Origin: an uncultured Actinomycetes bacterium
GTDB taxonomy: Bacteria > Actinomycetota > Geothermincolia > Fen-727 > JACVIW01
Reading direction: 5' to 3'
Length of the DNA: 64,000 bases
Assembly (NCBI GenBank): GCA_937127245.1
Contig: CAKZLU010000011.1
Coordinates: 62,001-126,000, forward strand
Part shown: positions 26,726 through 32,020 of the stretch, piece by piece
How positions within the stretch are numbered: position 1 is the first letter of the stretch
Layout: each line of letters begins with the position of its first letter
The notes under the pieces: model-generated
What the model saw: the letters and a program-made list of their open reading frames with translations, nothing else
The model's database searches: none
What the model was told of the DNA's origin: nothing
Program-made: the position numbers and the translations under genes

Positions 26726-28204
26726 ATGGACGAACTCAAAAAGAACACGCTTCTTGTCGCAATTTCAATCGCCGCCGCCCTGTTAATGGTGGCAATATGC
26801 ACCGTCGGTACGCCGACTCTCACCTCTTTTGTCATCATCACAGGCGTAGGAGTGGTTGCCTTTTTTGCTGTTCTGGGATGGAGCCTATGGGGATATTTCA
26901 CCGCCTTTTTGCTTGCCTGTTTGATCACTCTGACACTCGTTTTTAACCGAGAAAGCGGCCTTAGCACGCCAAGCGTCATGCACATAAGTTCAGTGCTTTT
27001 AAGATTTCTCGTAACCACACTTTTCGTTGGGTATTTCGGAAGAAGATTAAGCCTTGCCTCACAAAGTCTATATACCGACATGAAATTCTTTGCCGCCCTC
27101 AAAGAGGCCGCTCTCTCGGAATCCAGAAAGACAATAGCGAGGATCAACGCATTGGTGAGCGTGGTCACGTCCATTAGCAAGAAGACGAGCCTCGATAAGA
27201 TATTCAAAGCAGGACTTGAGGAATCGAAAAAAGCTCTAAACGCTGACTCAGGGCTGATTTATCGAGCGGACAAAGACGGAAAGCTGACAATTATGGGGTC
27301 TTTTGGCTATGAAGAGAAGGATCTGAGGAAAATGTCTGAGAGGCGCATAGAAACCGAATCGTGCGCCGCTTGCAGGACTCTTGAGCCCGAGATCGTTGAC
27401 AATCTATCCTCACCCCAGAAATGCCCGAACCTTGCGCCTATAAAAACCGGGTCCTCCATTTGTCTTCCCATCATAAGCGGGACAAGGCTTTGGGGTGCTT
27501 TACACCTACGAAGAAAACAACCGGAATCTTTCAGCGCTGGCGATATACAACTCGCTAGCGCAATAGCCTATCAATTTGCAATTGCCATGCAGCGCGCCGA
27601 GCTCTTTGAGGAAATATCAACGCTTGCCGTCACCGACCCGCTGACAAGTGTTTTTAACTATCGCAAGCTCACCGCTGACCTTGAAATGGAAATCATGAGA
27701 GCACAGCGATATGAAAGAAATTTTTCTTTCCTCATGGCTGACATCGACCACTTCAAAATTTTTAATGACAAATACGGACACCAGGCAGGTGATGAGCTAC
27801 TACGATTTGTCGCCCAAACAATGGTAAAAATGTCCCGGAAAACGGATCGCGTTTACAGATACGGGGGCGAGGAGTTTTCGATTATCCTCCCTGAGACCGG
27901 GTTGGATGCAGCCATGACCGTAGCCGAAAAGATCCGCGAAAGCATATCGAGCGAAAGCAGCAAGGCTGGGGATTTGGTCCCCGAAAGCGTCACCGTCAGC
28001 ATTGGGGTTGCCTCTTTCCCAGATGACGCGAAAGACATGAGGAAACTTATCTCTTGCGCAGATATTGCTCTTTATACTGCAAAGGACTTGGGGCGAAACA
28101 GGGTTGTTGCATATCGAGAGATCAACAGCGGCGATGAGGAGAGCATCAGCGAATCGCCAGCTTTTCCTCGACGGGAAGGCCCATTTGCTTGGCCATTAGA
28201 ATGA
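26726..28204 (+). CDS. GAF-GGDEF diguanylate cyclase with N-terminal TM region
   Basis: RKTDRVYRYGGEEFSIILPETG: GGEEF with RxxD I-site spacing; GAF-like segment upstream. Confidence 0.9.
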   Translation: MDELKKNTLLVAISIAAALLMVAICTVGTPTLTSFVIITGVGVVAFFAVLGWSLWGYFTAFLLACLITLTLVFNRESGLSTPSVMHISSVLLRFLVTTLFVGYFGRRLSLASQSLYTDMKFFAALKEAALSESRKTIARINALVSVVTSISKKTSLDKIFKAGLEESKKALNADSGLIYRADKDGKLTIMGSFGYEEKDLRKMSERRIETESCAACRTLEPEIVDNLSSPQKCPNLAPIKTGSSICLPIISGTRLWGALHLRRKQPESFSAGDIQLASAIAYQFAIAMQRAELFEEISTLAVTDPLTSVFNYRKLTADLEMEIMRAQRYERNFSFLMADIDHFKIFNDKYGHQAGDELLRFVAQTMVKMSRKTDRVYRYGGEEFSIILPETGLDAAMTVAEKIRESISSESSKAGDLVPESVTVSIGVASFPDDAKDMRKLISCADIALYTAKDLGRNRVVAYREINSGDEESISESPAFPRREGPFAWPLE

Positions 28205-29243
28205 AATCGTGCGGCTGATTGGATGCCTTAAGCGCAATCTGGAAGTCAATCAAACCATCAGCGTAAAGGGAAACAAGGGATTGATTGAATGTCTGCATTC
28301 CGTAAAAATCACCATCGGCTATTATTTCCCTCATTATCGATGTTGGTTCTTCGTTTAATATGCATTCAGCGAGTCTTCCGTTCATTATCATGACTTCCAC
28401 CGCAGGCACCCTTCCCTTGCCATCGGCACGCGGAAGAAGTATTTGGCTTATCACGCCAGCAAGCGTGCTGGTAAGAGTTATTCTGACCTGTCTTTGCTGG
28501 GTCGGGGGGAAGAAATCAATGATGCGGTTGACGGTCTCGGTGGTGTCCTGAGTATGGAAAGTCGAGAGAACAAGATGCCCTGTCATGGCGATGTTCATCG
28601 CGGATGTCACCGTTTCGACGTCGCGCATCTCGCCTATCAGTATCACGTCAGGATCCTGCCTCGTGATGTGCCTTAGAGCCTCACGATAAGAATTTGTATC
28701 GCTGCCTATCTCCCGCTGATGGACTATGCTTTTCTTGTCATAATGAAGAATTTCTATCGGGTCCTCGATCGTGATGATATTCAGCCTCTTGTTCTCGTTA
28801 AGCCAATCAACCATGGCGGCAAGCGTGGTCGTCTTCCCGCAACCCGTCGGACCGGTAACAAGCACCAGCCCTCGCGCCTCATCTGCAAGTCTTTTCAGCA
28901 CGGGAGGTAGCCCGAGTTCCTCAAATGATGGAATTTTTGTGGTGATAACCCTTCTTATGGAGATTCCTATCGTCCCCCGCTGCTTGAAAATGTTCGCTCT
29001 GAATCTCCCCAGACCCGGGACTGTATACGCAAAATCAGCTTCATTTGTCTCATGAAAGATCTTCGCCTGTCTTTCGTCCATGAGGGAAAAAGCGATTTCG
29101 ACAACATCCCTCGGCGAAAGCTTCGGGAACTCGGTCTCCATAAGCGAGCCATCAATCCTCAAATAAGGCGGACTGCCGGCTTTGATGTGAATATCCGAAG
29201 CTTTCGTCTCGACGCAAAGCTGAAGAAGTTCTTTGATTTCCAC
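28146..29243 (-). CDS. pilT: PilT twitching-motility ATPase
   Basis: DIHIKAGSPPYLRIDG, GPTGCGKTTTLAAMVDWLN, HQREIGSDT, RDPDVILIGEMRD, GHLVLSTFHT. Confidence 0.95.
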   Translation of the reverse strand: MEIKELLQLCVETKASDIHIKAGSPPYLRIDGSLMETEFPKLSPRDVVEIAFSLMDERQAKIFHETNEADFAYTVPGLGRFRANIFKQRGTIGISIRRVITTKIPSFEELGLPPVLKRLADEARGLVLVTGPTGCGKTTTLAAMVDWLNENKRLNIITIEDPIEILHYDKKSIVHQREIGSDTNSYREALRHITRQDPDVILIGEMRDVETVTSAMNIAMTGHLVLSTFHTQDTTETVNRIIDFFPPTQQRQVRITLTSTLAGVISQILLPRADGKGRVPAVEVMIMNGRLAECILNEEPTSIMREIIADGDFYGMQTFNQSLVSLYADGLIDFQIALKASNQPHDFILMAKQMGLPVEEKLAIR

Positions 29244-29355: not shown

Positions 29356-30384
29356 TCAAGCTCTCAAGTTCTTCGCTTGCTCGATTATTGAAAATGCCCT
29401 GTCAGAATAAACCGTCCCGGGCGGCTCTCCGTCTTTCGCCTCTACGTCAGCACCAATAAGGCCTGAGATGGTTTGAACAATCGAACGAGCTTGAGCCTCG
29501 AGATTATAACCACCCTCAAGGGTCACCAGAATTTTACCACCGCAGCATTCATTCGCCATTTCGACAATCATGTCTGTCATTTTTCTGTAAGAAGAATCAA
29601 CCAGCCCCATGCTGCAGAGAAGATCGAGGGCGTGTCCATCGTAACCTGCCGAAATCATTACAAAATCTGGGTTGAATTGTTTTCCCACAGGAATTATCAC
29701 TTCCTCAAAAGCCTTCAGGTAAACATCCTCTCCCGTTCCCGGGGGAAATGGAAAGTTTATTGTGGTACCCCTTGCCTGGCCGCTACCGATTTCATCTACC
29801 CAGCCCGTGCCAGGGTAGTGAGGATACTGGTGAAGGGATACGTACAAGACCGAAGGGTCCTCATAGAATATGTCCTGCGTGCCGTTCCCGTGATGCGCGT
29901 CCCAGTCAATAATCATTACTCTTTCGAGCCCTTTCTTGCTAACTGCGTATTTCGCCGCAATGGCCACATTGTTAAAAAGGCAGAATCCCATCCCCCTGGA
30001 TGGCAGCGCATGGTGTCCGGGCGGCCTTACAAGACAGAAAGCTCTGCCAATATCACCCGATAAGATTCTGTCCACGCTCTCAAGCAGAGCACCCGCAGCC
30101 CTTAGTGCGGCATCATAAGAGGAGCGCGAAAGAGCCGTATCCATGTCAAGATGTCCACCCCCTGATTCGGCGACCCTTTTCACCAAATCAATGTAGGAAG
30201 TCGTGTGGACAAGTTTTATTTCCTCCCTTAAAGCATCCCTCGGGGACTTAGTTTCAAGTTGGCTTTTGAGGCCGGATTTCTCTATCTCGCTCAACGCGAC
30301 CGGCAGCCTTTCAGCCCTCTCTGGATGACCTATCCCTGTATTGTGCTCAACGTATATATCATCATAGTAAAGCGTGGTTTTAAT
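29356..30384 (-). CDS. Histone deacetylase / acetoin utilization family protein, N-terminus extended to a rare ATT start
   Basis: RPPGHHALPSRGMGFCLFNNVAIAA, DWDAHHGNGTQDIFYEDPSVLYVSLHQ; upstream in-frame MKTTLYYDDIYVEHNTGIGHPERAERL. Confidence 0.85.
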   Translation of the reverse strand: MKTTLYYDDIYVEHNTGIGHPERAERLPVALSEIEKSGLKSQLETKSPRDALREEIKLVHTTSYIDLVKRVAESGGGHLDMDTALSRSSYDAALRAAGALLESVDRILSGDIGRAFCLVRPPGHHALPSRGMGFCLFNNVAIAAKYAVSKKGLERVMIIDWDAHHGNGTQDIFYEDPSVLYVSLHQYPHYPGTGWVDEIGSGQARGTTINFPFPPGTGEDVYLKAFEEVIIPVGKQFNPDFVMISAGYDGHALDLLCSMGLVDSSYRKMTDMIVEMANECCGGKILVTLEGGYNLEAQARSIVQTISGLIGADVEAKDGEPPGTVYSDRAFSIIEQAKNLRA

Positions 30385-30404
30385 GAGTTTTCGCCTCTTT
30401 CAGA

Positions 30405-30430
30405 TGTAAAAGCCCCCATCGGGGGGGTGC
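30405..30430 (-). terminator. Possible hairpin terminator
   Basis: Minus strand CCCCC-GAT-GGGGG followed by CTTTT, between NlpC/P60 stop and HDAC-like start. Confidence 0.45.
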
Positions 30431-30471: not shown

Positions 30472-31503
30472 CTACGGCCTTACAGCTCCACAGAAATTAC
30501 GGCGCGACGCCAGCGAATCAATCCTAACAACAGCGCCAGTGTGGGGGGCGTGGATATATTGTCCGCCACCTATGTATATTCCCACGTGCCCCCATCCTCG
30601 GAAACCAAGAATATCGCCCGGTTGTAGTTCGCTCACACTCACAGGAGTACCGCAATAGGCTTGCGCATATGAACTGTGAGGTATGTAGATGCCCGCTCCG
30701 ACCCTGTAACAATACTGAGTCAACCCCGAACAGTCAAAAGCATTTGGACCAGCGGCGCCCCAGACATAAGGTTTGCCCAATTGGGCGTAGGCCACGCCAA
30801 CCACTCCACTGTGCGGTGCGCCCGGAGGCCTCGTCCTTCTCCAAACCGGTGATATGGTGGGAACACGGCTGTAATTTCCTGATCTGCTCACAGACTCGGC
30901 AGTTCGCCTCGCCAGCATCTGCCTTATCTCTTCTTCCACGCCTGCAAGCTTGCCCTTTGCCGCGCGCAACTGCCGCTCTACTGCCGCCTTGCTCTCGGCA
31001 AGATTCCTCTTGACTGCAGCCTGCTCCGTTTCCCGCGCTTTAAGCCCTTCCTCAGCAGCTTTAAGACGAGCCCTCGCGTCTTTCACTTTCCGAACCAGCT
31101 CGGCATCATTCCTGCCTATCTTTTTGGTCAGGTCCAACCCTATGAGAAACTCGTCAAAGCTACCCGCGTTGACGACAACGTCCAGGAACTGGTTGTGGCG
31201 GGTAACGTACATGGCCCGGATGCGGCTGTTTAACCTCTCCTGCTTTTTCTTGAGTTCAGCCTCGGCTTTCGCAAGTTCCGCTCTCGTTTCTTCGAGTTCC
31301 GCCCTCGTCCTCTCCAGTCTGTAACAAGCGTATTTGTAGCGTTCAACCGCGTCTTCAAGCCTTTGCTGAGCCTCTTCGACTTCGCGCTGCGCCTGCGTGC
31401 GCCTTTCCTCGAGAGGAACAGCCCCTGCCGGAAATCTGATAAGCGCAACTGAAAGGAGTGCAACAAGCGCTATTACTAACGTAAGCTTTCTGCCTTGCGT
31501 CAT
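30472..31503 (-). CDS. NlpC/P60 (C40) peptidase with N-terminal coiled coil
   Basis: NAFDCSGLTQYCYRVG, GHVGIYIGGGQYIHAPHTG; signal-like MTQGRKLTLVIALVALLSVALIRFPAGA chosen as start. Confidence 0.9.
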   Translation of the reverse strand: MTQGRKLTLVIALVALLSVALIRFPAGAVPLEERRTQAQREVEEAQQRLEDAVERYKYACYRLERTRAELEETRAELAKAEAELKKKQERLNSRIRAMYVTRHNQFLDVVVNAGSFDEFLIGLDLTKKIGRNDAELVRKVKDARARLKAAEEGLKARETEQAAVKRNLAESKAAVERQLRAAKGKLAGVEEEIRQMLARRTAESVSRSGNYSRVPTISPVWRRTRPPGAPHSGVVGVAYAQLGKPYVWGAAGPNAFDCSGLTQYCYRVGAGIYIPHSSYAQAYCGTPVSVSELQPGDILGFRGWGHVGIYIGGGQYIHAPHTGAVVRIDSLASRRNFCGAVRP

Positions 31504-32020
31504 AATCTTATTGATAGTATCAAACCCCCGGTAACCTATATCATAAACGACGATATTATATGGAAAGGGTTTAAGTCGCGCAACCATCGCTGGCAATAAT
31601 TGGCAGTAAATGAAAGGCGAATGTAAGAATCCTCTTTTATTAAGCGTTTCTTCCTTGCCATGCTGAATGCCCACAATCTAATTGGTTTCCAAGTAATCCC
31701 GTTTAATAAATCACCCAAAATCTCTGCTATCAAGCGTTCCCGTCCCTCACAGACTCGTTCGCTTTTTTGAAAACATTCAAAAATTCTTGCGTAACAACTC
31801 ACTCAGGTTCGCAAGTCTCATCAATTTTGCTGGTTCTTCAGGTTGAAAATGTTATTCAGAACAGATAGGAGTTCTCGCCTTTTGCTGTATTTATGTATAT
31901 AAGGCATTTTTATAAGTTTATTCTCCCTAAAGATCCCGCCTCCCTTCAAGGGATGGCGCCGCCAAAAGCAAAATTATTAATGAGACCTCATTCGTTATCG
32001 TTTTTAGGAATCGGAAGAGC

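Follow-up and report, generated by a model that had tools for sequence, protein, structure and literature searches.

Can a bacterial gene for a histone-deacetylase-like (HDAC) enzyme be translated from an AUU codon? This question is raised by a locus on the minus strand of the window (the whole stretch of 64,000 nucleotides that was analysed), where the initial annotation had placed the apparent start of such a gene at ATT 30384, upstream of the open reading frame (ORF) that begins at TTG 30294. The locus comprises the following features:

28146 to 29243, minus strand: downstream neighbour, a PilT-like T2SSE ATPase gene (domain match, synteny)
29356 to 30384, minus strand: coding sequence of an HDAC-family (class II-like) deacetylase, 342 aa from the ATT (translation, PF00850, fold matches)
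30292 to 30294, minus strand: TTG, the first canonical in-frame start, judged internal (pairing -4.2 kcal/mol; its use would remove invariant residues)
30295 to 30384, minus strand: codons 1-30 of the ATT-started protein, lost with TTG 30294, with the first strand (residues 3-6) and the H14/G17/HPE/ERL motif
30382 to 30384, minus strand: proposed AUU start codon, the only accepted start codon at or adjoining the start position of the relatives
30394 to 30400, minus strand: Shine-Dalgarno-like AAAGAGG, 9 nt from the ATT (anti-SD duplex -7.8 kcal/mol)
30400 to 30402, minus strand: in-frame TGA limiting any upstream extension (sequence, translation)
30413 to 30427, minus strand: terminator-like hairpin CCCCCCCGATGGGGG followed by CTTTT, between the NlpC/P60 and HDAC genes
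30472 to 31674, minus strand: upstream neighbour, an NlpC/P60 peptidase gene with a PcsB-type coiled coil (domain match, synteny)

The description of the gene as histone-deacetylase-like is borne out by a profile search, in which the product matches PF00850 over the full-length domain (1.6e-98, profile positions 1-296 of 298), by the catalytic motifs RPPGHHA, DWDAHHGNG, SAGYD and EGGYN, all intact in the translation and in a 14-member alignment that keeps the zinc-binding and catalytic HH pair, DxDxHHG, SAGYD and GGY, and by the predicted structure (mean pLDDT 84.9), whose fold matches bacterial HDAH and HDAC6 (TM 0.83-0.91, the value for the P. aeruginosa HDAH being 0.91). Sequence comparison also reveals resemblance to HDAC6 and bacterial HDAH, no NCBIfam match was found for the protein, and the ORF runs without stops down to the stop codon ending at 29356. 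Judged by family and motifs, the gene encodes a complete class II-type HDAC-family enzyme. A distant second HDAC paralogue (30% identity; L002, G000:C11:57559-58344) is located beyond the window, at a distance of about 33 kb, and second copies like this one are found in most of the class.

From 30402 the minus-strand codons read TGA AAG AGG CGA AAA CTC ATT AAA ACC ACG CTT TAC TAT GAT GAT ATA. The codon reading agrees with the earlier claim that neither ATG nor GTG nor TTG occurs in frame between the TGA (30402-30400) and TTG 30294. The ATT-started protein begins MKTTLYYDD..., its predicted N-terminal peptide being (M)KTTLYYDDIYVEHNTGIGHPER, and it was also correctly stated that the ORF from TTG 30294 cuts a conserved N-terminus, given that 30 residues are lost with an invariant motif among them. 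H14, G17, H20, P21, E22, E25, R26 and L27 are invariant in 14/14 class members of the HDAC alignment, and the structural model has a strand at residues 3-6, with a pLDDT of 94 for residues 1-10; the conserved arginine of the H14-L27 loop presumably lies near the active site in HDACs. The relatives (80 GTDB-contig loci, 27 class genomes) likewise encode the stretch before the TTG, which is thus marked as protein-coding. Coding-like extensions of at least 12 codons before the first canonical start were found in 4 of 861 non-overlapping long ORFs (about 1.0 Mb of sampled stretches, 38% of this genome), the HDAC gene being the second strongest case. Two other candidates of this census, the NAD-dependent epimerase-like L170 (5800-6394) and the rhamnosidase-like L179 (1-2109), appear to be frameshifted or broken ORFs, reflecting either errors or pseudogenes.

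In nearly all inspected relatives, ATG, GTG or TTG stands at the ATT position itself, at the preceding codon or within a few codons of it; most same-order orthologues start one codon upstream, where CTC stands here, and a minority exactly at the ATT position. The comparison with relatives supports the proposed start in its position but not in its codon: all the order orthologues inspected with a readable N-terminus use ATG, GTG or TTG, so that the near-cognate start is not conserved there and the ATT rests on one assembly. With relatives starting at it or one codon upstream, ATT 30384 holds as the best available start. Several other candidates were rejected. CTC 30387 occupies the start position of most relatives, yet CTC is not known to serve as a start codon. 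ACG 30375 or ATA 30357 would each cost part of the first strand. If a frameshift is supposed, the closest out-of-frame ATG on the upstream side sits in the terminator-like hairpin and would add about 12 residues absent from the relatives.

The Shine-Dalgarno-like stretch described before the ATT is indeed present at 30400-30394, 9 nt upstream, but its uninterrupted anti-SD pairing core is just GAGG. The duplex energy of -7.8 kcal/mol, calculated like the other values with an assumed 16S tail and not with that of this genome, is better than that of 66% of the sampled first canonical starts (median -5.4) and than that of TTG 30294 (-4.2), and it is weaker than those of infC (-12.4), dtd (-11.6) and lepA (-10.5) in the same genome. 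The folding of the leader RNA is unremarkable (z -1.07).

The gene order NlpC/P60 - HDAC - pilT is found in 13/13 relatives on GTDB contigs and in the 27 class genomes examined, two sets that overlap, and the spacing between the NlpC/P60 stop and the HDAC start is 79-93 nt in relatives vs 90 nt here. A GC-rich terminator-like hairpin occurs at the same NlpC/P60-HDAC site in most same-order relatives, and an equivalent hairpin, GGCCCC...GGGGCC, stands at the same place in relatives L085-L093. The hairpin is kept in the order even though the start of HDAC lies no more than about 30-45 nt beyond it. This HDAC is 53-58% identical to four out-group proteins, vs 52-59% for other lineages of the order; evolution of the gene does not appear accelerated, and its sequence gives no sign of relaxed constraint. 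In the single genus-mate, whose assembly is 86% complete, neither an HDAC orthologue nor a close pilT orthologue was detected.

Near-cognate starts are also found elsewhere in this genome. The comparison with the rare start of infC was apt, since the infC of this genome itself appears to use ATT: the codons read TGA ACT GGG GGT GCA AGG AGG TCA GAA ATT ACA GGG AAT, with ATT after AAGGAGGT; from the upstream stop as far as this ATT no canonical codon occurs. The genus-mate likewise has ATT as its infC start and most of the class has ATA, and a strong Shine-Dalgarno sequence accompanies the start (L159, L157, L136-L164). In lepA (L198, G000:C2, 66475-68274, minus strand) a CTG lies five codons before IRNF, and no canonical codon occurs from the upstream stop to a GTG beyond the P-loop. 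Among the loci compared (L198, L205-L218, L312-L318), most of the order has the CTG again at the same offset. In several genomes a canonical start may also exist further upstream; the CTG is unambiguous in this genome (G000), G003, G006 and G013. The out-group families of the class carry ATG at, or close to, precisely that offset. In dtd, which encodes the D-aminoacyl-tRNA deacylase (L284, G000:C34:9994-10422, minus strand), ATC occupies the very position at which other dtd genes carry ATG. Its start is near-cognate in six order genomes (ATC here, in the genus-mate and in G007; ATT in G013; ACG in G004 and G012), and ATG, GTG or TTG in the others read (loci L279-L289 and L295-L311). Outside the order, the class mostly has ATG in both lepA and dtd.

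These starts do not amount to a mass phenomenon: among 174 orthologue pairs with the genus-mate (0.85 Mb of which was sampled, its lepA and dtd falling outside the sample) only infC was convincing as a conserved non-canonical start, and among the codons after SD motifs in extensions, ATT, ATC and CTG were not clearly overrepresented overall. Since no canonical start stands at the conserved position in infC, lepA or dtd, the lineage apparently uses non-canonical starts sparingly but repeatedly, in translation-related genes. The recurrence of near-cognate lepA and dtd starts at the level of the order, a by-product of this work, is more interesting than the HDAC start itself. It is tempting, if rather doubtful, to see here an order with relaxed start-codon selection or an IF3-responsive gene set (infC, lepA, dtd and, in this genome, HDAC), in which translation from AUU, AUC, AUA, CUG and ACG starts would depend on the level of IF3.

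The reading that we favour, and consider probable from the sequence evidence, is that this chromosomal gene encodes a functional class II-type amidohydrolase of the HDAC family and that, in this lineage, AUU has taken the place of its canonical start. It has to be weighed against the possibility that the ATT is a single-base consensus error, or a minority strain variant, of a draft assembly, and that the population carries ATG or another canonical codon. The gene is known from one assembly of 51 contigs, the genus-mate offers no orthologue for comparison, and the apparently broken ORFs of L170 and L179 point to errors or real pseudogenes in the assembly. Nevertheless, the remainder of the HDAC ORF is clean, near-cognate starts are independently conserved in the order in other genes, and by a rough prior of our own, which assumes 2500 genes and an error rate of 1e-5 to 1e-6 per base, each genome would have about 0.001-0.01 errors from ATG to ATT, fewer than the 0.04 switches per genome expected even at the rate for very close relatives (PMC5622118), so that an error is unlikely.

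Still less probable is a recent loss of the start codon that would have left a dying, hardly expressed pseudogene. The ATT with its moderate SD, the terminator-like hairpin 28 nt upstream of the ATT and the lack of detectable HDAC and close pilT orthologues in the genus-mate would fit such a fate; nevertheless, decay is unlikely, unless the loss is very recent, because the gene shows no accelerated evolution and keeps its catalytic motifs in an open frame; the hairpin, too, is shared with relatives whose starts are normal. Translation of a shortened protein from TTG 30294 is very improbable: TTG is common by count, being the first canonical codon in 284/861 sampled ORFs (spurious ORFs included), but this start has weak upstream pairing and would discard the first core strand and the invariant HPE/ERL residues, which belong to a segment that the relatives encode and with which they start.

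Initiation at AUU therefore stays the best reading, and the near-cognate starts of infC, lepA and dtd in the same genome add support to it. The GAGG core would place the 30S subunit on the HDAC mRNA and the initiator tRNA would pair with AUU, so that the protein would still begin with Met. IF3 discriminates against AUU, for which reason reduced expression and a sensitivity to IF3 greater than usual would be expected of this gene; by analogy, low expression from AUU is likely. That translation begins at AUU, that expression is low and that it responds to IF3 are points that we infer, as is the substrate of the enzyme. The HDAC start is a plausible, though unproven, new instance of a phenomenon that is rare but already known, with its ATT taken from one draft assembly.

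Gene finders usually accept just ATG, GTG and TTG, and genes like this one are consequently truncated in databases. Very few bacterial genes are listed as starting at AUU, and the HDAC gene, if confirmed, would bring a metabolic enzyme among them. Taken with what is seen in lepA and dtd, confirmation would also make this uncultured order a natural test of start-codon strictness, and the order could show whether non-AUG starts form an IF3-controlled set.

In Escherichia coli, infC and pcnB start at AUU, and for the lepA of other bacteria an AUU start has been predicted (PMC1780047); the pcnB start, according to the papers that cite the original work, was shown experimentally and limits translation (Binns and Masters 2002, cited in PMC13009471 and PMC1780047). 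The cvfC1 gene of Staphylococcus aureus starts at AUU, as mapped by ribosome profiling, and the published AUU and AUA starts of this species have extended SDs, their expression being about 10% of that from AUG (PMC13009471). Lineage-specific switches to AUU are rare among closely related genomes, with 1 in 61,358 ancestral AUG and 1 in 5,080 ancestral GUG starts over 36 genome groups (PMC5622118).

The infC of E. coli, with its IF3 autocontrol, and that of the order share with the HDAC gene an AUU that is the sole plausible start and is followed by a conserved N-terminus; however, infC has the strong AAGGAGGT SD and a near-cognate start class-wide, whereas the HDAC gene has ATT in one genome and a weaker SD. 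The E. coli pcnB resembles it as an AUU-started gene outside the autocontrol loop of an initiation factor, although the pcnB start is experimental and that of HDAC is predicted from sequence. In the lepA genes of Borrelia burgdorferi and Bacillus licheniformis, with predicted AUU starts (PMC1780047), only a non-canonical start restores the full length, as in HDAC; the gene is a different one, and those starts are predicted only. The published AUU and AUA sites have extended SDs (PMC13009471), whereas the HDAC SD, at -7.8 kcal/mol, is weaker than those of infC, dtd and lepA in its own genome. The protein itself, although only about 32% identical to the bacterial HDAC-like amidohydrolases (HDAH of P. 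aeruginosa, Kdac1, PrpH) and to HDAC6, has the fold (TM 0.83-0.91) and the zinc and catalytic motifs in common with them.
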